NCBI GenBank assembly: GCA_016218715.1
Contig: JACRDG010000017.1
Span: 1 to 64,000, forward strand
Source of the DNA: Desulfomonile tiedjei
GTDB lineage: Bacteria > Desulfobacterota > Desulfomonilia > Desulfomonilales > Desulfomonilaceae
Reading direction: 5' to 3'
DNA length: 64,000 bases
Below are positions 30,965 through 44,386 of the stretch, one piece after another. How positions within the stretch are numbered: position 1 is the stretch's first letter; each line of letters opens with the position of its first letter. The position numbers and the translations under genes are program-made. Below the pieces are notes generated by a model. That model saw only the letters and a program-made list of their open reading frames with translations, was not told the DNA's origin and made no database searches.

Positions 30965-31186
30965 ATGGGACTCAAATGCCGACATTGCAGCTTCGAGGGA
31001 ACCAGGGCTGACTTTAGGCTCCTGCAGCGCGTGGACAGCGCTGGCCCAGATACGTATCGGCTGTGTCCGAAATGCAAGGCGGCCGTCTATTGCGAGGAAC
31101 TGGAAGTGATCGACTCAGGGGGAGTCCCCTGGGGAGCGGGACACCTCCGCGGACGGGTGTTCCGTCGTTCCGACAAGTCTGACTGA
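30965..31186 (+). CDS. zinc-ribbon protein 1 of the glycyl radical enzyme cluster
   Basis: A 73-residue protein with two CxxC pairs, CRHC at residues 5-8 and CPKC at 34-37, separated by about 25 residues, a zinc-ribbon or rubredoxin-like metal site. The pattern CxxCxFE...FR...CPxC is shared with the proteins at 35985 and 36720, so the three are paralogues within one operon. The tail after the second pair is short and basic. It is the first gene of the cluster, 23 bp upstream of the first activase. Small Cys-rich proteins accompany succinate-forming glycyl radical enzymes, but the exact task of this one is unknown. Confidence 0.75.
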   Translation: MGLKCRHCSFEGTRADFRLLQRVDSAGPDTYRLCPKCKAAVYCEELEVIDSGGVPWGAGHLRGRVFRRSDKSD

Positions 31187-31209: not shown

Positions 31210-32187
31210 ATGGAATCAGGGACTCTGGTAACCGAGATTCAGCGATTTGCCGTGAATGACGGGCCTGGCTTCAGGACCAATGTGTTTCTCAAAGGGTGCC
31301 CGCTCAGGTGTCAGTGGTGTCACAACCCGGAAACCATAGCGCCCCATCGAGAAATTTACTGGAAAAGACGGTCTTGCGCTCAGTGTGGAGCGTGTCTGGA
31401 CGCGTGTCCCAACGACGCCGTAAATGCTCCCATACACCCATTTGAGGCGCGGCGGGAAGAATCCACGTACCACAAGATCATCAGGGACCGTTGCGACCTC
31501 TGCCTGAAGTGTGTGGATGCCTGCCAGTACGGTGCGCTGGAGATAGTTGGAACCAGGTTGAGCGTCAATGAAATACTGGACGAGGTGGAACGGGATAGAC
31601 CGTTCTACGACAACTCGGGCGGCGGGATGACCATCAGTGGCGGGGAGCCTACTGCTCATCCCGAGTTTGTCGTGCAACTGATCGAGGGGGCGCGGAGCAG
31701 GGGCCTCCACATTTGTCTGGACACCAACGGGTATTGCCAGTGGGACATCCTGGGGCCGATCGTGCAGAGCGTCGATATAGTCCTATACGACCTGAAGCAC
31801 CTCGATTCCGTCAAGCATGCCGAGATGGTCGGTGTGGGCAACGAGCTCGTTCTGGATAATCTCGTTAAGATCCTCGGCACCGGACCGGAGATCTGGATCA
31901 GACACCCGATCGTCCCCGATTACAGCGACTCCTGGGGGTATCATCTGAGTGTCGCCGAATTCCTCGATCGGCTTCCCGGGCGGATTCAGCGAATCGATCT
32001 GCTCCCATTCCACAACTGGTGTCAGGACAAATACTCCTGGCTCGGCCGGGACTGGCCGCTGAAAACAACTGAGTCCATGGATCCTTCTATCGTGGAGCTT
32101 CTCGTGGAGGCGTATCAGGCTCGAGGATTCGCCGCCACCACGGGTGGATCGGGATTCGAGGAGTTCGTGGTGCGGGGAGGCCACTGA
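31210..32187 (+). CDS. glycyl radical enzyme activase 1 (radical SAM)
   Basis: A 325-residue radical SAM enzyme of the PFL-activase family. The SAM-cluster motif CxxxCxxC is CPLRCQWC (about residue 30), followed by a ferredoxin-like insert with two [4Fe-4S] motifs, CAQCGACLDAC and CDLCLKCVDAC, as in BssD and other long activases. SAM-contact motifs GGMTISGGEP and the DTNGYC strand follow. It installs the glycyl radical on the partner enzyme under anoxic conditions. The ATG has GAGGAG upstream. It ends one base before the start of a second, distinct activase. Confidence 0.93.
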   Translation: MESGTLVTEIQRFAVNDGPGFRTNVFLKGCPLRCQWCHNPETIAPHREIYWKRRSCAQCGACLDACPNDAVNAPIHPFEARREESTYHKIIRDRCDLCLKCVDACQYGALEIVGTRLSVNEILDEVERDRPFYDNSGGGMTISGGEPTAHPEFVVQLIEGARSRGLHICLDTNGYCQWDILGPIVQSVDIVLYDLKHLDSVKHAEMVGVGNELVLDNLVKILGTGPEIWIRHPIVPDYSDSWGYHLSVAEFLDRLPGRIQRIDLLPFHNWCQDKYSWLGRDWPLKTTESMDPSIVELLVEAYQARGFAATTGGSGFEEFVVRGGH

Positions 32188-32188
32188 T

Positions 32189-33112
32189 ATGGAACAACAC
32201 CCGGTCTTCGGAGTGGTAAACGACATCCAGAGGATGTGCACTTGCGACGGCCCCGGGTTTAGGACCGTGGTTTTCCTGAAGGGTTGCTATCTCGATTGTC
32301 GGTGGTGTCACAATCCTGAGGGGAAGAGACGCTTTCCGGAAGTAATCCCTTATGTTGGAAACTGCGAGGGGTGCGGTGAGTGCCTCACCGTGTGCCCAAC
32401 CGGCGCGGTCACTGTTGACGACGGACTTGGGCCTCGGATCGACCGTGGTCTTTGCTCCACCTGCCTCCAATGTGTCAAAGCCTGCAAATATGACGCACTT
32501 GTCCTGTGGGGACGCATCATGCTCGCTGAACAGGTGGTGGCGGAAGTGGAGCTGGACAAAATGATCCATGTGAATTCGGGAGGGGGCGTCACCATTTCCG
32601 GCGGCGAGCCCATGGCGCAGCCCGACTTTGTCCTGGCAATCATGGCTGCATGCAAAGCACGAGGCATCAGCACCGCTCTGGACACGTGCGGGCACGCCCC
32701 CTGGGAAGATTTGAAGCGAGTTCTCGAGTACACGGATCTGGTGATGTTTGACATCAAACAGATGGATGGCCATAAGCACCGGGAATATTCCGGCGTCGGC
32801 AACGAACTCATTCTCGAAAACGCGAAACGGATAGCCAGTCTGGGCGTCCCGATAAGGTTCAGGATTCCGATAATTCCCGGAAGCAATGACTCGACAAGGA
32901 ATTGGGAAAGCGCAGCCAGGTTCATCGAATGCCTTGGGGACGCGGTCTTGGGCGTAGACCTTCTGCCATACCATCCGTTTGCCGGGGGCAAGTACAGGGC
33001 CTTCGGCATGGACTACCCGTACCCGGGCGGGGAAGGTTTGGCCGATGATGACGTCGCACCGGTGATAGATCTGTTCCTGAAGCACGTACCCGAAGTTACG
33101 GTAGGCGGTTAG
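32189..33112 (+). CDS. glycyl radical enzyme activase 2 (radical SAM)
   Basis: A 307-residue activase homologous to the preceding one but clearly diverged. The start at 32189 has GGGAGG 8 bases upstream. SAM-cluster motif CYLDCRWC, ferredoxin motifs CEGCGECLTVC and CSTCLQCVKAC, then GGGVTISGGEP and LDTCG. All expected cluster ligands are present, so it should be active. Two adjacent activases for a single visible glycyl radical enzyme is unusual: either both serve it, or one serves an enzyme encoded outside this window. It lies 38 bp upstream of the small subunit gene. Confidence 0.93.
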   Translation: MEQHPVFGVVNDIQRMCTCDGPGFRTVVFLKGCYLDCRWCHNPEGKRRFPEVIPYVGNCEGCGECLTVCPTGAVTVDDGLGPRIDRGLCSTCLQCVKACKYDALVLWGRIMLAEQVVAEVELDKMIHVNSGGGVTISGGEPMAQPDFVLAIMAACKARGISTALDTCGHAPWEDLKRVLEYTDLVMFDIKQMDGHKHREYSGVGNELILENAKRIASLGVPIRFRIPIIPGSNDSTRNWESAARFIECLGDAVLGVDLLPYHPFAGGKYRAFGMDYPYPGGEGLADDDVAPVIDLFLKHVPEVTVGG

Positions 33113-33150: not shown

Positions 33151-33315
33151 ATGGCTACTTGCAAAGACTGCAAGAGCTTTTTCGCAAGGGAGGATGACCG
33201 GTCACAGGGTGACTGCGTGATGAGGGTTGTGGACCCGCGGCAGGCCTACTACCAGGCCACGCCGGTGGAGACAGAGAAGGATGCCTCAAAATGCTCATCG
33301 TTCCAGAAAAAATGA
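33151..33315 (+). CDS. BssC-like small Fe-S subunit of the glycyl radical enzyme
   Basis: A 54-residue protein with a strong AAGGAGG ribosome site. It has four cysteines (CKDC at residues 4-7, C22 and C48) and the central stretch DCVMRVVDPRQAYY, a pattern I recognise from the gamma subunits of benzylsuccinate-type synthases, which hold a [4Fe-4S] cluster and bind the large subunit near its active site. It lies 74 bp upstream of the large-subunit gene, the same order as in bss operons (activase, gamma, alpha, beta). It is too short for most gene finders but well supported by context. Confidence 0.85.
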   Translation: MATCKDCKSFFAREDDRSQGDCVMRVVDPRQAYYQATPVETEKDASKCSSFQKK

Positions 33316-33389
33316 AATTCCACCCTGCGTACGTGCCATCCGGGGCAGAGGCTCAATGAGCCTTGTCTCCAGCACCAAGGAGTAGAAAC

Positions 33390-35894
33390 ATGGGGCAAAG
33401 AACAGCACAGACTGAAAAAGCACTGAGTGTCGATGAACTGGCAAATAGAAGGGAATGGTGGTCTGTTGCCCAGAAAACCAGGTCCAAACGGTTGGACTAC
33501 CTTCGCAAGGGTGTCTGGAAGAAGGGAGCCATCGGCGGTAACTACGCTCCCGGAATCAAGATCGACCTGACCCTTCCCCAGCTCTTTACAGAGAAATGGC
33601 AGGAGCAAGAGGGCGAGCCCATCATGCTTCAGAAGGCCCACGCCATAGCCCACGTCCTGGACAACATCCCGATATTCATCACCGACAGGTCGCAGATCAT
33701 GGGCTATATCGGGAGCGCCCCCCACCAGATCGTTTGGCATTGGCAGGGCATCAGCATGGTCAACGAGGAGATCTACAACGAGGAAGGGATCATACCGGAG
33801 CCGGAAGAAGAATCTCTCGAGATTCTCGCCACCCTCAACGACTACTGGGGCGGTCGAACCGCCGTAGACAAACTTGCTCGAATACTCGATCCCGAAGATG
33901 CCGTGAAGTTCATGAGCGGAGCCATCGGCTGGGGCACTCCTACGTCTGCGGCTACCTATTCCACAAAGGACTTCACCTACATTTTCAAGGGATTTGAGGC
34001 CCTGCTCGCCGAGATCGAAGAGCGCATGGAAGAAACAGAGCAAAAGCTTCAAGGGAATCCTTCACCACAGCTCCTCCCGCTGTACGACAAACTCCCCCGA
34101 TGGGAAGCCATGCAGATCGTTCTCGAGGCGAGCATTCGGTATGCCAAACGCTATGCGAGATTGGCGCGAACCCTGGCCGAGCATTTCGAAAGCGATCCCA
34201 CGCGAAAAGAAGAACTGCTGCGCATAGCAGAGACCTGCGAACGTGTCCCTGCTAAACCCCCGCGTAACCTTCAGGAATCGTTGCAGTTCGATCATTTCGT
34301 CCAGGTCCTCGCTCGGTACGAGACTTTCGAGGGAGCATGGCCGCACCGTCCGGATTACGTTCACGGCCCGTACTACGATAAGGACGTGAACCAGGAGAAG
34401 CGGCTTACCAAAGAGGAAGCCCTTGACCTCGTCGGGGAGCATCTGATTCGCACGTACGAAGTGGGGATATTCGCTCCCAAATGGGCTCGAGAGGGGCTCC
34501 AGGGGATCACCGGAACCTGGGTCTGGACCATGGGCGGTGTCAAGCCCGACGGATCTGACGCGTGCAACGACATGACCATCGCGTACATGCAGGCGGCGCG
34601 CCTGGTTCGGGTATCCAACCCCACTTTTGGGTTCAGGTGGCATCCCAAGGTGAAAGACGAAGTGTTGCGGGAATGCTTTGAGTGCATCAGGCACGGGCTC
34701 GGGTATCCTTCGATGCGCAACGATCCGGTGCTTGTGGCGAACACGGTCCACTGGTACGGGCACCCGGTGGAGGAAGCCCGAACATGGGTGCACCAGGCCT
34801 GCATGTCCCCCTGCCCCACTACCAAGTACGGCTGCCAGCCGATGCGAATGGCTTCGGCCACGGCCAATTGCGCAAAGATGATTGAGTACGCCCTCCACGA
34901 CGGATACGATCCAGTCGTGAACATGCAAATGGGACCCAAGACCGGAGATCCTCGCCAGTTCAAGGACTTCGAGGAGTTTTTTGGGGCGTGGGTCAAGCAG
35001 ATGGAGTGGCTGCGGAATATCCTGGTCCGCACAGTCAATTTAGGCCGAGTCAAAGATCCCGAGTTTTTCGGGAGGCCATTTCTTTCGGCCATCTACGAAC
35101 GGGCGGTCGAGACCGGGACTGACGCGTGCGACCCATCCAACGGTGAGCGTGGAAACGCTTGGGTGACCGGATTTACCTGGGTGGAGAACGCAGACAGCCT
35201 CGCCGCAATCAAGAAATTCGTCTACGACGAGAAAAAATACACCATGGATCAGCTCATGGAGGCGCTCAACGCGAACTGGGTGGGCTACGAGGAGATGCGC
35301 CTGGACTTTGTCAAGAATGCGCCCAAGTGGGGCAATGACGACGACTACGTGGACGACCTAATGGTTCGCTGCCTGAGGGAGGTGTCGCGACACGCCAAAG
35401 AGAATAAATGCCCGAGCAATAACAACTGGCCGCTGTTGCCGGAAAATGTGAGCGGAAACATTCATTACGCAAACCTGGTCGGTGCTCTCCCCAACGGTCG
35501 CCGGCTAGGCGACGCCCTGTACGACGGAGGCATCTCGCCGGGGCCGGGACTCGATAAAAAGGGGCCCACTGCGGTGCTCAAATCATGCGGCAAGTTCGAT
35601 CATGTCACGGACGGCCGGGCTTTCCTCCTCAACCAGCGTCTTTCGCCAACGCAGCTCTCTGGAGAGAAGGGGTACCAGTTATGGAAGGCCTACATGAAAA
35701 CATGGGCCGATCTGGGCCTCGATCACGTGCAGTTCAACATGGTGGATGACGCCACCTTGCGGGCTGCTCAAAAGGATCCGGAGAAGTACCAGGAGGTCAT
35801 CGTCAGGGTGGCTGGTTACAGTGCCCACTTTGTGGACATTAGCCGAAAGACCCAGGACAACATCATCCAAAGAACCGTCCAAGGACTGGGATGA
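33390..35894 (+). CDS. aryl/alkylsuccinate synthase-type glycyl radical enzyme, large subunit
   Basis: An 834-residue glycyl radical enzyme; the ATG at 33390 has AAGGAG 7 bases upstream. The active-site Cys is Cys471 in QACMSPCPTTKYG, and Arg486 in QPMRMASATAN sits 15 residues later, the spacing of Cys493 and fumarate-binding Arg508 in BssA. The radical site is Gly809 in VRVAGYSAHF, 26 residues from the end. These motifs place it in the fumarate-adding family (BssA, AssA/MasD, NmsA, HbsA, IbsA) rather than pyruvate formate-lyase or diol dehydratase. It should add a hydrocarbon radical across fumarate to form a substituted succinate. Which hydrocarbon cannot be read; the acyl-CoA genes nearby favour an alkane. 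Its accessory genes surround it. Confidence 0.93.
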   Translation: MGQRTAQTEKALSVDELANRREWWSVAQKTRSKRLDYLRKGVWKKGAIGGNYAPGIKIDLTLPQLFTEKWQEQEGEPIMLQKAHAIAHVLDNIPIFITDRSQIMGYIGSAPHQIVWHWQGISMVNEEIYNEEGIIPEPEEESLEILATLNDYWGGRTAVDKLARILDPEDAVKFMSGAIGWGTPTSAATYSTKDFTYIFKGFEALLAEIEERMEETEQKLQGNPSPQLLPLYDKLPRWEAMQIVLEASIRYAKRYARLARTLAEHFESDPTRKEELLRIAETCERVPAKPPRNLQESLQFDHFVQVLARYETFEGAWPHRPDYVHGPYYDKDVNQEKRLTKEEALDLVGEHLIRTYEVGIFAPKWAREGLQGITGTWVWTMGGVKPDGSDACNDMTIAYMQAARLVRVSNPTFGFRWHPKVKDEVLRECFECIRHGLGYPSMRNDPVLVANTVHWYGHPVEEARTWVHQACMSPCPTTKYGCQPMRMASATANCAKMIEYALHDGYDPVVNMQMGPKTGDPRQFKDFEEFFGAWVKQMEWLRNILVRTVNLGRVKDPEFFGRPFLSAIYERAVETGTDACDPSNGERGNAWVTGFTWVENADSLAAIKKFVYDEKKYTMDQLMEALNANWVGYEEMRLDFVKNAPKWGNDDDYVDDLMVRCLREVSRHAKENKCPSNNNWPLLPENVSGNIHYANLVGALPNGRRLGDALYDGGISPGPGLDKKGPTAVLKSCGKFDHVTDGRAFLLNQRLSPTQLSGEKGYQLWKAYMKTWADLGLDHVQFNMVDDATLRAAQKDPEKYQEVIVRVAGYSAHFVDISRKTQDNIIQRTVQGLG

Positions 35895-35984: not shown

Positions 35985-36209
35985 ATGAAGTGCACTGAAT
36001 GCGCGTTCGAGGCGCCAATAGGCAAGTTCCGTTACCTATACAACGCTCGAATCGACTCTTCCATCAGCATGAGACAGTGCCCCCAGTGCGAGCAATGGCT
36101 TGCTGTGGACGAATTGCTGGGAGAAGCCCAAGACGCGGTGCATCCCGGTGAGGCCCCGTGGGGTAAATCAGCAGGAATCGAGGGGTTGGCCGGAGACTCC
36201 CAGGGATGA
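35985..36209 (+). CDS. zinc-ribbon protein 2 of the glycyl radical enzyme cluster
   Basis: A 74-residue protein with CTEC at residues 3-6 and CPQC at about 29-32, paralogous to the zinc-ribbon proteins at 30965 and 36720: each starts with CxxCxFxA/E, then an F-R/T-x-L stretch, then CPxC. The ribosome site is GAGGAAA. It is inserted between the large (33390) and the second small subunit (36231), where bss operons have none. Possible roles are metal delivery, electron transfer, or subunit assembly; none can be shown from sequence. Confidence 0.75.
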   Translation: MKCTECAFEAPIGKFRYLYNARIDSSISMRQCPQCEQWLAVDELLGEAQDAVHPGEAPWGKSAGIEGLAGDSQG

Positions 36210-36230: not shown

Positions 36231-36599
36231 ATGTCCAGGCGCGATAAGTGGAAGAGTGCGAGGGATGCCATGATGGGCCCGTTGGCACGAGCTAAAGGGG
36301 TCAAGAACCGGGAAAGCGTACCCGAAACATGCTGCGGCAAGTGTCAGATGTGGTCTGAAAACGCATACTCGTCCGAAGGCAGAGGCACTTGCCGCGTGCT
36401 GAAAATGGGGTCCGATCTCAATTCCAATCAACCTACCTACGTGCTGGAGGGCGAAGCAGGCCTCATATCGTATTTCAACATGGATGCTTCCCGTTGCACC
36501 TATTTCACGAAAATGGAACTCATCGACACCGACGGAACGGAGTGCTCGGATCCCCATTTTCGAAGGGCGCTCAGGCAGATGAAGAAATTCAACGAATGA
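36231..36599 (+). CDS. BssB-like small Fe-S subunit of the glycyl radical enzyme
   Basis: A 122-residue protein with AGGAGG before its ATG. Four cysteines in CCGKC (about 35-39), GTCRV (about 55) and SRCTYF (about 90) have the arrangement of the beta subunits of benzylsuccinate-type synthases, HiPIP-like folds that bind one low-potential [4Fe-4S] cluster. The long N-terminal helix with Arg/Lys residues could clamp the large subunit. The beta subunit is known in bss systems to regulate access of fumarate and the activase to the active site. It follows zinc-ribbon protein 2 by 21 bp. Confidence 0.8.
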   Translation: MSRRDKWKSARDAMMGPLARAKGVKNRESVPETCCGKCQMWSENAYSSEGRGTCRVLKMGSDLNSNQPTYVLEGEAGLISYFNMDASRCTYFTKMELIDTDGTECSDPHFRRALRQMKKFNE

Positions 36600-36719
36600 A
36601 GCATGGCTTCCGTTACCTTCCAGCGCACGTCGCAGCGAAAGGGGCTGTCGCCCTAACGATTGCACGAGGGCGATCGCCAGCCTTTCGGTGGACCTTGCGC
36701 AGAGGAGCGAAAAGTGGAA

Positions 36720-37058
36720 ATGACATGCAGGCAGTGCGGATTCACCGCACCGTATTCGGAATTCACCTACCTGTGCAAATCCGGTTGACCCGCGTGCGGA
36801 GAAGCTGATCTCCGCCAATGTCCCAGGTGTGGGACCCAAAACCTGTTTTCACGGGCCGAAAGCCTCGAAAGAGAAGAGATCGAAATGAGAGAGCTCTCCG
36901 AGAAACTTGCCGGCATTTCCGCAACCGGAAGCGAGGAAGAGCTGGCCGAGGCCCGAGGGCTCATAGCGAAACTGAGGAACATGAACCTGAGATGGAACGT
37001 TCCCGAGCTGTCGAATTTCATCAAAGCCCGGCAGCGGGAGCTGTTCTTCAGAACTTGA
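36720..37058 (+). CDS. zinc-ribbon protein 3 with in-frame TGA, candidate selenoprotein
   Basis: An ATG at 36720 opens a frame that meets TGA at 36786-36788 (codon 23) and then continues uninterrupted to a TGA at 37056, giving 112 residues if the first TGA is read through. Before it: MTCRQCGFTAPYSEFTYLCKSG; after it: PACGEADLRQCPRCG, then an acidic helical domain. Both sides align with the zinc-ribbon paralogues at 30965 and 35985 (CxxC...CPxC), so the TGA is internal to one gene. It replaces the first Cys of what would be a CPAC motif, giving UPAC. A 7-bp hairpin starts 7 bases after the TGA. Selenocysteine is the favoured reading; a nonsense mutation of a Cys codon is the alternative. Confidence 0.65.
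36796..36815 (+). promoter_or_regulatory. SECIS-like hairpin downstream of in-frame TGA
   Basis: A perfect 7-bp stem, GCGGAGA (36796-36802) with TCTCCGC (36809-36815), encloses the loop AGCTGA, with G at its second position as bacterial SECIS loops prefer. It begins 7 bases after the TGA at 36786. The TGA-to-loop distance of 14 bases is slightly shorter than the usual bacterial range, so this is suggestive, not decisive. Confidence 0.45.
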
Positions 37059-37115: not shown

Positions 37116-37964
37116 ATGGCCGGATTCGACCTGTCAGCCGCAGTCCCGACGCCGGAAGAGCACTTCTTCCTCGAGGAGAGAGAAATCGTCTACCTGGAAC
37201 GAATCCATGAACTCTCCAAGCGCCATCCCGTAAACCTCCTGGTGGCCGGAAAGCAAGGCTGTGGAAAATCGACGCTCGTGCGGCAGTTTGCTGCCCGCAA
37301 CAGCCGACCCATGGCCACTTTTCAGATCGGCATCCTTTCCGAGCCGGGCCAGCTGTTCGGGGAGCACAGACTTAAGGAAGGGGAAACCTATTACCAGAAA
37401 TTCCTTTTTCCCCAAGCGATTCAGACACCCGGCTGCGTGATTCACCTCGAAGAGATCAATCGGCCGGAGCATCCCAAAGCTCTTAACATGCTGTTCTCTG
37501 TCCTTGCCGAGGATCGGCGCGTGTGGACGGACGAACTGGGTCTTTTGCAGGTCGCTGAAGGCGTAGTCTTCGTCGCGACCCTCAACGAAGGGGATGAGTT
37601 CATAGGCACGGAGATGCTCGATGCCGCGCTCCGGGACAGATTCTATGTGACCCTGCTCGGCTACCTGCCGGCAGAAATAGAGGCCAGGGTCCTCGAGCTC
37701 AAAACCGGCATCGACAGCGCCGACGCGTTGACGGTGGTCAATGTGGCCAACCAGCTCCGCGGAAACGCACAGGAACCGATTACCGTCTCCACACGGCACA
37801 CGCTGATGATCGCAGAACTGATATCGGTGGGAGCATCGGTCAAAGAAGCGTTCATCAACAGTCTTTCCGTGAGCAAAGACGTGCTGGAGTCGATTCTCCT
37901 CTCCCTCCATATCCAGCTCGGTCAGACAGGAAAAGGCAATGGATTGCGGTATCGGTCCTATTAG
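37116..37964 (+). CDS. BssE/NorQ-like AAA+ ATPase 1
   Basis: A 282-residue AAA+ protein of the MoxR branch, close in layout to NorQ/CbbQ and to the BssE/TutH proteins of toluene operons. Walker A is GKQGCGKST (about residue 45), Walker B is VIHLEEINR (with Glu-Glu rather than Asp-Glu), sensor 1 is FVATLNEGDEF, and the arginine finger region is LDAALRDRFY. Such ATPases pair with VWA proteins to remodel or activate a client enzyme. Its 3' end overlaps the VWA gene by 26 bp, confirming the pair. The client is presumably the glycyl radical enzyme or its activase. Confidence 0.9.
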   Translation: MAGFDLSAAVPTPEEHFFLEEREIVYLERIHELSKRHPVNLLVAGKQGCGKSTLVRQFAARNSRPMATFQIGILSEPGQLFGEHRLKEGETYYQKFLFPQAIQTPGCVIHLEEINRPEHPKALNMLFSVLAEDRRVWTDELGLLQVAEGVVFVATLNEGDEFIGTEMLDAALRDRFYVTLLGYLPAEIEARVLELKTGIDSADALTVVNVANQLRGNAQEPITVSTRHTLMIAELISVGASVKEAFINSLSVSKDVLESILLSLHIQLGQTGKGNGLRYRSY

Positions 37965-39750
37965 GATTTCTTCGTCTTCATCGGAAAAGACGTCGGATCA
38001 ATCCAGAGGGAGTGCAAGCCAGCGGATGGGAGATGGATCGGAGCCCTCTGAAGAGGCCACGGTCGACGGCCAAGGTCTTTCTGCGTTTTGGCGCATGAAT
38101 ACCTCGCCGGTGGCTGCCACAGAGCTGGCGAATCTGCTGCGGGCGCTTCGCAAAGCAGCCGGATACCTCGGCCCAAATGTCGGTCAAATCGAGTGGGCTG
38201 GTATGTCCCGGGGGAATACGGGAGCCATTATACTGGATCCATCCCTCGTTTTCGGCCGCTACCCGGTCCCGAGCGAAAAAGTGGATTACGTCCTCGGTGT
38301 TCTGGTCCATGAGGCGATCTCGAGGATCGAGTGGAGCGACCTTGTCTGGAAGAAGCTGGAGCAGTATCTCGCGGGAATGAGAATTCTGCACAAGATCATG
38401 TTTCAGAAGATTGTCGAGACGGGCGAACAAATCTACTGCGACATGATCCTGGATCGATGCCTGTTGGGACTGTACGCGGCTCGAGCGAGGCGCGTAGCCA
38501 TGGGACAGGCCCGGCTCAGGCTCCGTGGGGACAAAGTGACCGTGGACGAGCTGGTACAGCTCTGGTGGGAGATCACCTGGGGCGAAAGCCTACCGGCGGG
38601 CCTCGAGGCCTATGAGGACGCGCTGGTGCCTCTGCACGGTCTAAGCAGCCGGCTCAGAGAGACGAGCACATCGTCCGCGAGGCTGGATCAAAGGTGTGAG
38701 CAACGGAGTTCGCTCTACGTCGAAGCCTGGGAGCAGGTCAAAGAAGCAGTAGTCCCGCTGGCAGTCCTGAACAAGGTGCTCGTGTGGCATCCCGAATCAG
38801 GCTCCGCGGGATGCAGCCAGCGCCCGCGCGAGAGCGCACGCGGCACGAGAACGGAGCTGCCGACTTTCGTGGCCAGGAAGGTGGAGGCCGAGCTGGCGAA
38901 AAGCTCGACTGACCTGACTCCCATCATACGCTCCGTCGTGGGGTACGAGAACGAAGACGTGGTGCCCATGTCACGGTGGGACTTCGATATCTCGGCTCGA
39001 CCGGTGGTGGATACCAAGCAGGTGAATAGGCTTCGAGCCATATTCCGCACGTACGCGGACAGATCGAAGCTCGTCAGTCGAGGCCTCACAAGCGGTAAGA
39101 TTGACAGAAAGCGACTCTATCGGGCCCCTATCTCAGGCCGTTGCTTCATGGAAGCACACCACATACCAAACATGAACTGGAACATTTGTCTCCTTGTCGA
39201 CGCCAGCGGATCCATGAGGGGACCCAAGTGGCGACTGGTCGAGAACACCGTCGCTACCATCCACAAGGCCTTTCTCGGCTTCGAAAATTCTTTCCGTGCA
39301 TACGCCTACTTCGAGGCCAATGGTATCTCGATGGTGGCCAATCTGGTAAGAGCGAGGAATCTTGTCTCTATCCCGCCGAGCGGGCAAACCACGTCGGGGC
39401 AGTCCATCATCGCAGCAGCTTACTTCATGCCTCAGGATAGCCGCAGAAGACTCCTCATACACATAACTGATGGTGAGTCAAATCTTGGGTGCCACGTACA
39501 GCACGGGATCGATTTCTGCAGCGACAAAGGCATCCATCTGGTGACCCTGGGATGCGGGTACAACAATCGTCAGGCAATGCTGAAACAGTACGGGAGGGGT
39601 ATACAGTTCCTTAATAGCTTCGGTCAATTGCCTTCTGCACTGGAGAAGCTGCTCAAATGGACACTCATATACGGCGGCACCGACAATCACACGCCATCGC
39701 AGCGGAACTGGGCTTTGGACCAGTTCGACAGCCAGGGAGGAGCTACGTGA
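37939..39750 (+). CDS. VWA-domain protein 1, partner of AAA+ ATPase 1
   Basis: A 603-residue protein with a C-terminal von Willebrand A domain (about 410-590). The metal-ion-dependent adhesion site is complete: DASGSM (about 418), the Thr in GQTTSGQS, and the Asp in HITDGESN. The N-terminal 400 residues are helical, with ATELANLLRALRKAAGYLG and VLVHEAISRIEW conserved in the second VWA protein at 42638. The NorD/CbbO proteins that pair with NorQ/CbbQ ATPases have the same architecture. AGGA lies 8 bases before the ATG, which is inside the 3' end of the ATPase gene. Its stop overlaps the next start (TGATG). Confidence 0.87.
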   Translation: MDCGIGPIRISSSSSEKTSDQSRGSASQRMGDGSEPSEEATVDGQGLSAFWRMNTSPVAATELANLLRALRKAAGYLGPNVGQIEWAGMSRGNTGAIILDPSLVFGRYPVPSEKVDYVLGVLVHEAISRIEWSDLVWKKLEQYLAGMRILHKIMFQKIVETGEQIYCDMILDRCLLGLYAARARRVAMGQARLRLRGDKVTVDELVQLWWEITWGESLPAGLEAYEDALVPLHGLSSRLRETSTSSARLDQRCEQRSSLYVEAWEQVKEAVVPLAVLNKVLVWHPESGSAGCSQRPRESARGTRTELPTFVARKVEAELAKSSTDLTPIIRSVVGYENEDVVPMSRWDFDISARPVVDTKQVNRLRAIFRTYADRSKLVSRGLTSGKIDRKRLYRAPISGRCFMEAHHIPNMNWNICLLVDASGSMRGPKWRLVENTVATIHKAFLGFENSFRAYAYFEANGISMVANLVRARNLVSIPPSGQTTSGQSIIAAAYFMPQDSRRRLLIHITDGESNLGCHVQHGIDFCSDKGIHLVTLGCGYNNRQAMLKQYGRGIQFLNSFGQLPSALEKLLKWTLIYGGTDNHTPSQRNWALDQFDSQGGAT

Positions 39751-40299: not shown

Positions 40300-40710
40300 A
40301 TGCTCGTCAGTGAGGCCGTAAAAGGCTATTTGGCTCAATCGCCCAGGATTAATGTCCTGAGCACGTCAAGTAATCGAGGCGAGGCCAACGTGGCACTGTT
40401 CGGCTCGCCGGTTCTTATCGATGAATCCACGGTGATGATGATGTTGTCGGAGAACCGGACCTATGCCAACTTGCGGGAAAACCCCCGGGCGGCCCTCCTC
40501 GTCATCATGCCCGGCACGACGGGAATGCAGACGGAAGGCTGTCGTCTCTACCTGAAAGTCAAGACCATTGAAGACAGTGGCCCCGCGCTCGATGCCATGA
40601 AGGCCAAAATCAAGGCAAAAGTCGGAAACGCTGCCGACATGCTCAAGCACCTGGTGGTGTTCGAGGTCGAGGAAACCCGGCCTCTTGTGGACATGGGCCA
40701 GGGAATTTGA
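40300..40710 (+). CDS. pyridoxamine 5'-phosphate oxidase-fold (FMN-binding-like) protein
   Basis: A 136-residue protein; the ATG at 40300 has AAGGAG 8 bases upstream. The split-barrel pattern is visible: SEAVKGYLAQSPRINVLSTSS, ANVALFGSPVLIDESTVMMML, RTYANLRENPRAALLVIMPG and the strand CRLYLKVKTIEDSGP, each shortened here. These are features of small flavin-reductase/PNPOx-like proteins that bind FMN at a dimer interface. Function in this operon is unknown; a flavin-dependent electron supply for radical activation is one possibility. The next gene begins 13 bp after its stop. Confidence 0.7.
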   Translation: MLVSEAVKGYLAQSPRINVLSTSSNRGEANVALFGSPVLIDESTVMMMLSENRTYANLRENPRAALLVIMPGTTGMQTEGCRLYLKVKTIEDSGPALDAMKAKIKAKVGNAADMLKHLVVFEVEETRPLVDMGQGI

Positions 40711-40723
40711 GGAGCTGGCGGGC

Positions 40724-40999
40724 ATGGGCGCCACCATACGACTCCCAGGATCGTTGAAGTTCTGGATCGGAGGCTCAGAAGAGGTCAACTGCGAGTGTGG
40801 AACCGTACGTGAATGCATCGACTACCTCAGTGAGACCCACCCCGACTCGAGAGCACGGTTGTTCGATGAGCAGGGGGAGGTGAGTTCTCTTCTGATGATC
40901 TTTCTCAACGGAGAGAACGTTCGCCACCTGGACGGATTGGCCACATCGGTCAAAGACGGGGATCAGTTGGCCATCATTCCGCTTGCAGTGGGAGGATAG
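40724..40999 (+). CDS. MoaD/ThiS-like ubiquitin-fold protein ending in Gly-Gly
   Basis: A 91-residue beta-grasp protein; the ATG at 40724 has GAGGAG upstream. ATIRLPGSLKFWIGG opens the fold, MIFLNGENVRHLDGL is the conserved central strand and KDGDQLAIIPLAVGG the end. The C-terminal Gly-Gly is the residue pair that is adenylated and thiocarboxylated in MoaD, ThiS and related sulfur carriers. No E1-like (MoeB/ThiF) gene lies in the window. In this operon it may carry sulfur or modify a partner protein. Its stop is 4 bp before the next start. Confidence 0.8.
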   Translation: MGATIRLPGSLKFWIGGSEEVNCECGTVRECIDYLSETHPDSRARLFDEQGEVSSLLMIFLNGENVRHLDGLATSVKDGDQLAIIPLAVGG

Positions 41000-41003
41000 G
41001 ATC

Positions 41004-41525
41004 TTGATCGTTGACGATCCTAATTCTCACTTCGTGTTCGTGTATCACCCCGAGATTTATTACGGCAAGAGGTACACCGTGTACGACGGCCGGCCGATGA
41101 CGAACGGAGAAGTGCTCGAGAACTGGGGCAAGTGGATAATCCTGGGTGAACTGGCTTCGCTGGAGAAGCTTGCTGCAGAGCTGAACTCCTATGTTGAGCG
41201 GGAGAGCATTCCGGTCATCAAATACGATCGGGAGCCTCCTCGGAATCTCGGCATCGATGAGTGCGTTATGATGGTGTACTGCGACAAGCGTTGCCGCGAG
41301 ACGGTGTGGGCTATTCTGGAGAGTCACGGGGTCAAGCTCAAGGCGTGGGTCTCTGAAAAGGAGACCATGGAGATGTGGTCGCCGGGAGGCTTCCTTCTCG
41401 AACGATGGATCGAGTCAAAAAACCTCGATGAAAACCAGGCGCTTGCAGTGCGGGAAGATGCCCGAGTGAGGCTCGGAAGCGTGTTTGAGAGGCCGGAGGA
41501 GATATTTTCACCCTGGACCCAGTGA
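41004..41525 (+). CDS. conserved-looking protein of unknown function in the cluster
   Basis: A 173-residue protein. The TTG at 41004 is preferred because GGAGG lies 7-8 bases upstream within the 3' end of the MoaD-like gene. It is acidic, rich in Trp and Tyr (HFVFVYHPEIYYGKRYTVYDG, in parts), and has two halves with alternating strands and helices. The helix ECVMMVYCDKRCRETVWAILESHG could be a ferredoxin-like fold. No signal peptide or membrane segment. I do not recognise the family. Its tight packing in the operon suggests a role in assembly of the synthase rather than in downstream acyl-CoA metabolism. Confidence 0.65.
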   Translation: MIVDDPNSHFVFVYHPEIYYGKRYTVYDGRPMTNGEVLENWGKWIILGELASLEKLAAELNSYVERESIPVIKYDREPPRNLGIDECVMMVYCDKRCRETVWAILESHGVKLKAWVSEKETMEMWSPGGFLLERWIESKNLDENQALAVREDARVRLGSVFERPEEIFSPWTQ

Positions 41526-41773: not shown

Positions 41774-42625
41774 ATGATCGATGCAGAAAAACTACTGAAT
41801 GTCCCCCGGCTGGATTCGAGTTTCTATTCCCGGGAAGAGGTCATGACGAATCTCGACCGGCTGGAGATGATGTCGAGCAATCACCCGGTGAACGTCCTCG
41901 TGACCGGCAGCCAGGGTTGCGGTAAGTCGTCTCTGGTGAGGCAGTTTGCGGCCTATTACGGAAGGCCCATGGCGACCTTTCAGGTGGGGCTGCTCGTGGA
42001 ATCGGGCCAGCTTTTTGGACAGCAAAGGCTGAGGAACGGGGAAACGTACTATCACAGCTTCCTGTTTCCCAGGGCAATCCAGACCCCAGGCTGCGTCGTG
42101 CACCTGGAGGAGATCAACAGGTCGGAGACACCGTATGCTCTCAACGAACTGTTTTCGATTCTTTCGGAGGACAGGAGCATCTGGATCGACGAGTTGGGCT
42201 TCACACAAGTGGCGCCGAAGGTGATGTTCTTCGCCACCATGAATGAAGGCCACGAGTTCTCGGGCACGGACCTGCTGGATGCGGCCCTCAAAGACAGATT
42301 CTACCGTGTCCACCTCGATCATCTTCCTGCCGAGATAGAGAAGCGGGTCTTGATAAGCAAAGCCGGCATTGACAGCGAGACCGCGTCACAGCTCATGAGG
42401 GTTGTGAACCTCCTGAGAAGCAACAAACAGATGGCCCTCAACGTTTCCATACGTCACAGCCTGATGATCGCGGAACTCCTGGCTCGTCGAGCCTCCTTGA
42501 GGGAGGCATTGATTTATAGCCTCCAAGTATCTAAAGATACGCTGGAATCATTGCTCCTCGCGGCCCACGTCGAAACCGGTGAGCAAGAAGTCGATCCAGA
42601 CAGGTATAGGCCGTATGTCCCGTAG
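41774..42625 (+). CDS. BssE/NorQ-like AAA+ ATPase 2
   Basis: A 283-residue paralogue of the ATPase at 37116, similar along its whole length. Walker A is GSQGCGKSS, Walker B VVHLEEINR, sensor 1 FFATMNEGHEF, arginine-finger region LDAALKDRFYR. As in the first copy, Walker B has Glu-Glu. The start at 41774 lacks a strong ribosome site; a TTG at 41729 is in frame but no better. It is 12 bp upstream of the second VWA gene, so the operon holds two complete AAA+/VWA pairs. A 248-bp gap separates it from the preceding gene and may hold its own promoter. Confidence 0.9.
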   Translation: MIDAEKLLNVPRLDSSFYSREEVMTNLDRLEMMSSNHPVNVLVTGSQGCGKSSLVRQFAAYYGRPMATFQVGLLVESGQLFGQQRLRNGETYYHSFLFPRAIQTPGCVVHLEEINRSETPYALNELFSILSEDRSIWIDELGFTQVAPKVMFFATMNEGHEFSGTDLLDAALKDRFYRVHLDHLPAEIEKRVLISKAGIDSETASQLMRVVNLLRSNKQMALNVSIRHSLMIAELLARRASLREALIYSLQVSKDTLESLLLAAHVETGEQEVDPDRYRPYVP

Positions 42626-42637
42626 GAGATTCCGGCC

Positions 42638-44386
42638 ATGAGCCACAACCTGCTGGACGGGCGATCGCTTTCGAGGCCGTACGTACGCCCTGCCCCCTCT
42701 CGGCAAGCCCTCTCCCGGTACTGGCGCACCATGCGGGCAAGCCACGAGGCCACCGAGCTTGCTCTGGTGTTGAGGGCTCTGCGCAAGGTCACCGGCCACA
42801 TAGGACTTAACGTGCGGCCGGTATTCTGGCTTGGCATGACCTCGTCGCCGGGCTCGGCCATCATCGTTGACCCCCAAGATTACGCCGGCAGTTATCCAAT
42901 GCCGTTGCGGACATTCGACGTCATGGTGGGCCACGTGGTGAGAGAAGCCTACCATGACCTCGAATGGAGTCAGTGGGTAAAAAACAGAGTGCAAGGCCGA
43001 TTCAAGACCAGCCATCCGGAAGCCGCCGACTACCTCATCAGCGTTCTGGCTGCCGGTGAGGACATCTTCATAAACAGATTGCTGGCATCACGCAGTGTTT
43101 GGTCACTTTACCTGACAAGATATTGGGAGCACTCCCTGGCAAAACGCGACCGTGACCCGTCGTTGCCTCCCACCCCATCTTCCCTGGCCGACGTTTGGAG
43201 GGCGGTCGCTGTGACCGCAAGCCTGCCAGAGGGGCTTCACGAGGCATATGGCGACCTTTTGACCGCTCTCGGGGAACATCAGGATGCGCTGCGAGAGGTG
43301 GGGTGCATGGATACCGTCTTGCAGAGGAGCTCTGCTCGAGTAATGCTCTACGAGAAGATCTGGAATCGCTTGGCTCCTCGTGTCCTGGAAATGATAGGGT
43401 CGTCGATTCCTCTGTCTGGCGTCGAGATTCGGCAGCCCGGCGCTCCCAGGAAGGCCTCGCAGGATAGTGAGCGGCCCGTCCATGAAAACATTGGGCTCCC
43501 GGAGGAGGAGCGGCGGCGGCGTCCCGGCCTGGAGAAGGAAGTGGCCGAACAGGTTTCCACTCTCCTGGACGGAACCGCAACAGACCTGAGCGATTGGATA
43601 GCTTCTGTCGCCCAGGATGCCGGGGCAGACGCGATACCGACCGTGCTTTCCGCAGGGTCGGCTCCGAGCACCGTAACTCCTGATCCACACCTGGTAAAGA
43701 GACTCAGACGAGTGTTTGAAGCACAAGAAGCGTTTGAAAGGAGATTCAGGAAGAAGCGTGTCAGAAGAGGTATGTGCGGCGGAAGACTGGACGCACGAAG
43801 ACTGTACCGCTGGTCCCTGGACGAGAAGATATTCAAGATAACCGATAAGCTGAATCCCGACCATGCGTGGCAGATCACGTTGTTAGTCGATGCTTCTGCG
43901 TCCATGGTACGCAAGAAGCGGGGTGAAGTGCCGTGGACTGTAGCCGAAAAGACTCTGACCTCTCTCGTGGAAGCGGGGAAGGCATCCAGGAACAAACTGG
44001 AAGTCTATGCCTACAACGAACAGGATCGCCGCTGTCAAGTGGTATCGCTTGCCGACGGTGAAAAGGTGTTCACTCTGTGTCCGGCCGGTCAGACGCCCTC
44101 AGGTCAGGCGTTGCTGACAGTGGCCCTGCTCGGCCGAGGCAGGCCTAACAAAACGCTGATCCTCCACATAACCGACGGTGGGTGCAACTGCGGGCTTGAC
44201 GTTGCCTACGCAACACGGTATTGCCGAGAAAACGATATCGATCTCATCACGATCGGGTGCGGGTACACGGCTCAAACCAGTGACCTGCTGCGCGAGCAGT
44301 ATCGTGGCAGCCTGTGCTTGATGGACAGCATCTACCTGTTGCCGGAAAACCTCGAACGCGTTATTCGCCAGCGGCTTCTCGCATGA
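42638..44386 (+). CDS. VWA-domain protein 2, partner of AAA+ ATPase 2
   Basis: A 582-residue paralogue of the protein at 37939, with AGGAG 9 bases before the ATG. The helical N-terminus contains ATELALVLRALRKVTGHIG and VVREAYHDLEW, matching the first copy. The C-terminal VWA domain has DASASM (about 420), GQTPSGQA and HITDGGCN, so the metal site is preserved. The central linker (about 240-330) is charged and poorly conserved between the copies. The second pair could serve the second activase or a different conformational step of the same enzyme. Confidence 0.87.
   Translation: MSHNLLDGRSLSRPYVRPAPSRQALSRYWRTMRASHEATELALVLRALRKVTGHIGLNVRPVFWLGMTSSPGSAIIVDPQDYAGSYPMPLRTFDVMVGHVVREAYHDLEWSQWVKNRVQGRFKTSHPEAADYLISVLAAGEDIFINRLLASRSVWSLYLTRYWEHSLAKRDRDPSLPPTPSSLADVWRAVAVTASLPEGLHEAYGDLLTALGEHQDALREVGCMDTVLQRSSARVMLYEKIWNRLAPRVLEMIGSSIPLSGVEIRQPGAPRKASQDSERPVHENIGLPEEERRRRPGLEKEVAEQVSTLLDGTATDLSDWIASVAQDAGADAIPTVLSAGSAPSTVTPDPHLVKRLRRVFEAQEAFERRFRKKRVRRGMCGGRLDARRLYRWSLDEKIFKITDKLNPDHAWQITLLVDASASMVRKKRGEVPWTVAEKTLTSLVEAGKASRNKLEVYAYNEQDRRCQVVSLADGEKVFTLCPAGQTPSGQALLTVALLGRGRPNKTLILHITDGGCNCGLDVAYATRYCRENDIDLITIGCGYTAQTSDLLREQYRGSLCLMDSIYLLPENLERVIRQRLLA

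Follow-up and report, generated by a model that had tools for sequence, protein, structure and literature searches.

In the window, by which we mean the whole stretch of 64,000 nucleotides analysed here, the forward strand carries an operon built around a glycyl radical enzyme. Its genes encode a small Cys-rich protein, the third delta-like one at this locus (30965-31186; match to 9o8u_D, E 0.0055), two radical SAM glycyl radical activating enzymes (31210-32187 and 32204-33112, both above the TIGR02494 cut-off), a MasC/BssC-like gamma subunit (33151-33315; 9o8u_C, E 9.6e-11), the glycyl radical alpha subunit (33363-35894; 9o8u_A, that is MasD, 1393 bits), a rubredoxin-like, MasE-like delta subunit (35985-36209; 9o8u_D, E 1.2e-34 with the profile of the delta family) and a MasB-like beta subunit (36231-36599; 9o8u_B, E 2.8e-30). 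The alpha subunit contains the RVAGY radical loop and may truly start at ATG 33390. The reference 9o8u is the cryo-EM structure of (1-methylalkyl)succinate synthase (PMC12358834). Since the alpha, beta, gamma and delta products match MasD, MasB, MasC and MasE and activating enzymes are present, the operon is, on the strength of these homologies, one encoding alkylsuccinate synthase (mas/ass). The gene at 30965 was also considered as the gamma subunit; this assignment was rejected, the match to 9o8u_D making it delta-like and the gamma subunit being encoded at 33151.

Downstream of the beta subunit lies the gene that is the subject of this report, here called SecP (36714-37058, 114 amino acids), which combines a delta-like N-terminal domain with a tail predicted to be helical. 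It is followed by a MoxR-type AAA+ ATPase (37116-37964) and by the VWA-domain partner of this ATPase (37939-39750). SecP stands directly upstream of the MoxR ATPase in 34 of the 35 loci, window included, in which the downstream side of SecP is on the contig; the exception is the locus of genome G218.

Several other features of the region deserve mention. The gamma subunit has only 54 amino acids, below the usual size in lists of open reading frames. The two activating enzymes (31210-33112) stand in tandem for a single alpha gene, and several relatives have one. A gene resembling ThiS-family sulfur carriers (40685-40999) lies in the operon region; several related loci have it too, with the adjacent gene (40983-41525) beside it. 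A second MoxR/VWA pair occurs downstream (41774-44386), so that the region holds two such pairs.

The in-frame TGA and the sequence behind it

The SecP frame contains a single in-frame stop codon upstream of 37056, the TGA at 36786-36788, which replaces the first Cys codon of a CPAC motif and would yield UPAC. In this respect the sequence bears out the earlier note, which had proposed a selenocysteine at this codon. The reading frame given there (36720-37058) stands at its end; its start is less well placed. GTG 36714 is likelier than ATG 36720, because a probable ribosome-binding site, GAGGAG (36702-36707, as read from the sequence), lies 6 nt upstream of it and because homologues begin with M-x-[LMI]-T-C. 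Selenocysteine is residue 25 when counted from GTG 36714 and residue 23 from ATG 36720; the numbers used below (Sec23, C3, C6, C19, C26, C34 and C37) are counted from the ATG. TGA also terminates SecP itself and most genes of its operon, so any recoding must be local.

The genome encodes selA, selB, selD and a tRNA-Sec with anticodon TCA (UCA), and its selD is itself Sec-containing (motif UASK). The machinery for selenocysteine is thus complete. The presence of SelB does not discriminate between genomes with a Sec and those with a Cys form of SecP, nearly all of which carry selB. Two SecP carriers, G224 and G033, have no full selB, probably because their bins are incomplete.

Since a scan of contigs had given just one close relative, homologues were sought in whole genomes: 60 related genomes, 395 genomes of the phylum (Desulfobacterota) and 389 genomes of one class. 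Together with the window gene, 44 close homologues were recovered. TGA occupies the codon in 34 of them, distributed over 17 family-level groups, and Cys in the remaining 10; no residue other than Sec or Cys was found at this position among the 44. Such a distribution at an identical codon excludes chance. Downstream of the TGA, pairwise dN/dS values of 0.02-0.45 show purifying selection. On a tree built without the Sec/Cys site, five changes between Sec and Cys are required, at least three of them forced by well-supported branches.

Directly behind the TGA lies a SECIS-like hairpin (36796-36815), already noticed as a 7-bp stem beginning 7 bases beyond the codon and confirmed here: its arms GCGGAGA and TCTCCGC (36796-36802 and 36809-36815) enclose the loop AGCTGA (36803-36808). 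The predicted energy is -12.7 kcal/mol (z = -2.8 against shuffled sequences). When compared with synonymous recodings, the fold reaches a mean z of -2.7 in Sec genes, as against -0.35 for the Cys genes (p 4e-5), and z is negative in all 17 families with Sec genes. In the stem alignment 92% of the cells are paired, versus 36-53% in slid controls, and 11 doubly changed stem cells were observed against 3.6 in shuffles. The clearest case of covariation concerns residue 26. Where this residue is Thr and not Cys, the first base of the stem becomes C instead of G, and the codon of Arg32 is CGG in eight of nine such genes versus 4/25 of the others (p 2e-4); read from the codons, the change from CGC to CGG is a synonymous compensation restoring the stem pair. 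These p values are optimistic, the sequences being related, and the family-level count (17/17) is the safer figure. Compensatory and synonymous changes thus maintain the hairpin in the TGA genes, whereas most Cys genes lack it. One Cys gene, L077 of genome G686, retains all seven stem pairs; its stem is apparently a former SECIS left by a recent change from Sec to Cys.

Two observations count against a SECIS. The loop begins 14 nt past the UGA, or 17 nt when the count starts at its U, which is close to the lower limit of the 16-37 nt range of the bSECIS model (PMC13188914), and G is missing from the first two loop positions in some homologues. Rfam identified no SECIS family in the window, its sole match being a tRNA.

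Could the TGA simply be a real stop, leaving either a pseudogene or a short peptide followed by an unrelated open reading frame? TGA is indeed the usual stop of most genes in the operon. Against this stand its recurrence at one codon in 34 genes of 17 families, the selection acting on what follows and the fact that Cys is the sole alternative residue; a real stop is therefore very improbable, and the pseudogene version was rejected on the TGA/Cys pattern and on the purifying selection behind the TGA. A reassignment of UGA throughout the genome, for instance to Trp or Cys, would also open the frame. No support for it was found, it is contradicted by the complete Sec machinery and by the genes, SecP and its neighbours among them, that stop at TGA, and it was rejected; we regard it as scarcely conceivable. 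There remains very little doubt, in our opinion, that SecP is a selenoprotein in which UGA 36786 is read as selenocysteine, although no proof exists at the protein level and the case is made by inference from sequence. The candidate proposed in the earlier note is in this way strongly supported by three kinds of evidence, the machinery, the covariation of the hairpin and the TGA/Cys homologues.

Two cases among the relatives deserve separate mention. Four sequences (L089, L090, L091 and L092, from genomes G766, G732, G486 and G714) form a distant, shorter subfamily of about 29% identity with TGA at the same aligned position, in the motifs SSUCGP, SSUSGP and SCUGGP. Two of these four loci encode a glycyl radical activating enzyme immediately upstream, and the subfamily probably represents another accessory protein of glycyl radical enzymes that contains Sec. 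In genome G218, a TGA-bearing SecP homologue (L067, 8418-8741) has no mas genes within about 8 kb; the open reading frames around it were read as resembling 2-hydroxyacyl-CoA dehydratase subunits.

Relation of SecP to the delta subunit

Residues 1-43 of SecP align with the delta family (hhalign 95.7%, E 1e-8), and the best PDB match of the SecP family profile is MasE (E 0.0028). The earlier note had described both sides of the TGA as aligning with paralogues at 30965 and 35985. These two genes are delta (MasE)-like, and the relation holds for the approximately 43 N-terminal residues; it does not extend to the last 70. Likewise, the label of zinc ribbon calls for greater precision: this domain is a relative of the mono-iron, rubredoxin-like MASS-delta, and a metal in SecP itself is inferred from homology alone. 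No full-length match to MasE was obtained, the alignment stopping at about residue 43 and leaving out the C-terminal tail by which MasE touches the radical domain. By these alignments SecP is a paralogue of delta (MasE) and not an orthologue of MasE.

The cysteines C3, C6, C34 and C37 are present in 44/44 SecP sequences and align with Cys3, 6, 32 and 35 of MasE. Sec23 lies outside these four Fe-ligand positions, in an extra UxxC hairpin with Cys26 and Cys19; this hairpin is longer than its counterpart in delta, which has no Cys there. Cys26 is replaced by Thr in nine genes and Cys19 is lost in three, and some Cys near Sec/Cys23 is always kept (Cys28 in G218). Only Sec/Cys23 and the four Fe-type cysteines are invariant. 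We infer from this conservation pattern that Sec23 and a nearby Cys would constitute not a metal site but a redox pair; the redox reaction is itself an inference.

A structure model computed from five sequences consists of three strands followed by helices, so that the tail is predicted to be helical; an earlier model from two sequences was poor in its N-terminal part. Foldseek searches with the five-sequence model gave no significant match, only matches to helical bundles. MasE is absent among the fold matches listed, which says nothing against the relation between SecP and delta.

Possible functions in the alkylsuccinate synthase operon

Taken as a whole, our reading is that SecP may be a Sec-dependent redox accessory or maturation factor that serves the glycyl radical synthase together with the MoxR/VWA proteins. 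Its function remains a hypothesis, and to the reading as a whole, with the function in it, we give about an even chance. UGA 36786 would be decoded in a SelB-dependent manner with the aid of the hairpin right behind it. A paralogue of delta, SecP keeps the four Cys by which MASS-delta coordinates a single Fe and would have gained a second, redox-type site between them, in the hairpin where Sec23 meets Cys26 and/or Cys19, while a helical bundle would replace the short tail of delta. It could then dock on alpha at the site used by delta or by the activating enzyme and, together with the MoxR/VWA ATPase, help in maturing, switching or re-reducing the oxygen-sensitive complex, while Sec and its neighbouring Cys would cycle between selenolate/thiol and selenenylsulfide. 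Gene order and homology are the only grounds for inferring the docking and the partnership. Delta has been proposed to occupy the binding place of the activating enzyme and to have to move for activation, and its mono-iron domain was called enigmatic by its discoverers (PMC12358834). A delta paralogue endowed with a redox Sec beside MoxR/VWA genes would fit a switching, maturing or re-reducing role, an inference that rests on protein anatomy and on the order of the genes. No SecP-type gene occurs in the seven-gene mas cluster of strain HxN1, whose complex was produced from masBCDE (PMC12358834); the basic reaction therefore does not require SecP everywhere. The SecP of G218, with no mas gene within about 8 kb, counts against a role in the synthase.

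Two other functions must be weighed. SecP could be a stable structural subunit, a second delta in which Sec serves as a metal ligand or tunes the Fe site without redox turnover. Its delta-like domain with all four Fe-type Cys and its position amid subunit genes would suit such a role, which we nevertheless consider doubtful: the four cysteines form a complete set to which Sec does not belong, the hairpin bearing Sec exceeds in length that of delta, where Cys is absent, and C26 and C19 vary as the residues of a metal site would not. Alternatively, the partner of SecP might not be the synthase at all, SecP serving the MoxR/VWA chaperone as a redox sensor or as an adaptor for its substrates. Its adjacency to the MoxR gene (34/35) is more constant than that to any subunit gene. 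BssE is a MoxR-type ATPase. Toluene degradation cannot do without bssE, a gene of the bss operons, the product of which is drawn as a putative BSS chaperone (PMC5874301). This possibility, too, seems rather unlikely to us, since the relation to delta argues for binding to alpha and the distant Sec subfamily adjoins an activating enzyme instead.

The reading of SecP as a redox accessory factor of the synthase can be carried further, with correspondingly little confidence. Selenocysteine might have been recruited for the control of protein radicals in anaerobic hydrocarbon-activating enzymes: SecP would replace delta on the glycyl radical domain, and Sec would quench, shuttle or repair glycyl/thiyl radicals or the cluster of the activating enzyme. 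We offer this as a speculation more likely wrong than right. If it were true, the distant subfamily with Sec, which adjoins other glycyl radical activases, would make of this a general device.

Given 34 genes with TGA, spread over 17 families, and 10 with Cys, the machinery that surrounds this alkane-activating radical enzyme probably makes use of selenium. As the operon serves the oxygen-free breakdown of oil alkanes, selenium is now linked to anaerobic alkane degradation. SecP supplies an unrecognised component of alkylsuccinate synthase operons, probably truncated or missed by gene callers, and offers hypotheses, open to experiment, about the activation or protection of these radical enzymes. 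It also suggests that attempts to express such operons in standard hosts may be unsuccessful unless selenium or a Cys variant is provided.

SecP and known selenoproteins

The earlier note knew of no selenoprotein tied to a glycyl radical synthase, and this holds within the sources consulted. A 2026 inventory counts 119 prokaryotic selenoprotein families (PMC13188914), none of which is an accessory protein of alkylsuccinate synthase or of a glycyl radical enzyme. No NCBIfam or Pfam model matched SecP above its curated cut-off, and no report of a SecP-type selenoprotein was found in the open-access literature, subscription papers being outside the scope. A 'hypothetical protein DW' has been predicted in Desulfosarcina sp. 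BuS5 and D. widdelii (PMC12013277); the model under which it is listed (NF041197, motif GxU), the sole basis of the comparison, did not match SecP. We therefore class SecP as a new selenoprotein family and as a Sec-bearing variant of the delta-type accessory protein.

Among small Cys-rich ribbon proteins with Sec, SecP resembles the zinc ribbon-containing (seleno)protein DG (NF049953) and the FmdB-type UxxU proteins. DG differs in its motif, GUxG versus GUxxC/T in SecP, and NF049953 gave one weak match (E 0.0074) and none above cut-off on ten SecP members. With thioredoxin, glutaredoxin, GrdB and other known UxxC selenoproteins (PMC13188914, Table 1), SecP shares the redox-type motif, the exchange of Sec and Cys among homologues and a hairpin past the UGA, but library scans revealed no sequence relation to any of them. 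The closest known system remains MASS-delta (MasE; PDB 9o8u chain D; PMC12358834), which has the same N-terminal CxxC...CxxC domain, is encoded in the same operon and, as a family, shares 34% identity with SecP over 41 aligned columns. MasE has a short tail and is devoid of Sec and of the UxxC hairpin, whereas SecP, in whose operon a separate MasE gene is present, adds Sec23, C26, C19 and a predicted helical tail of about 65 residues.
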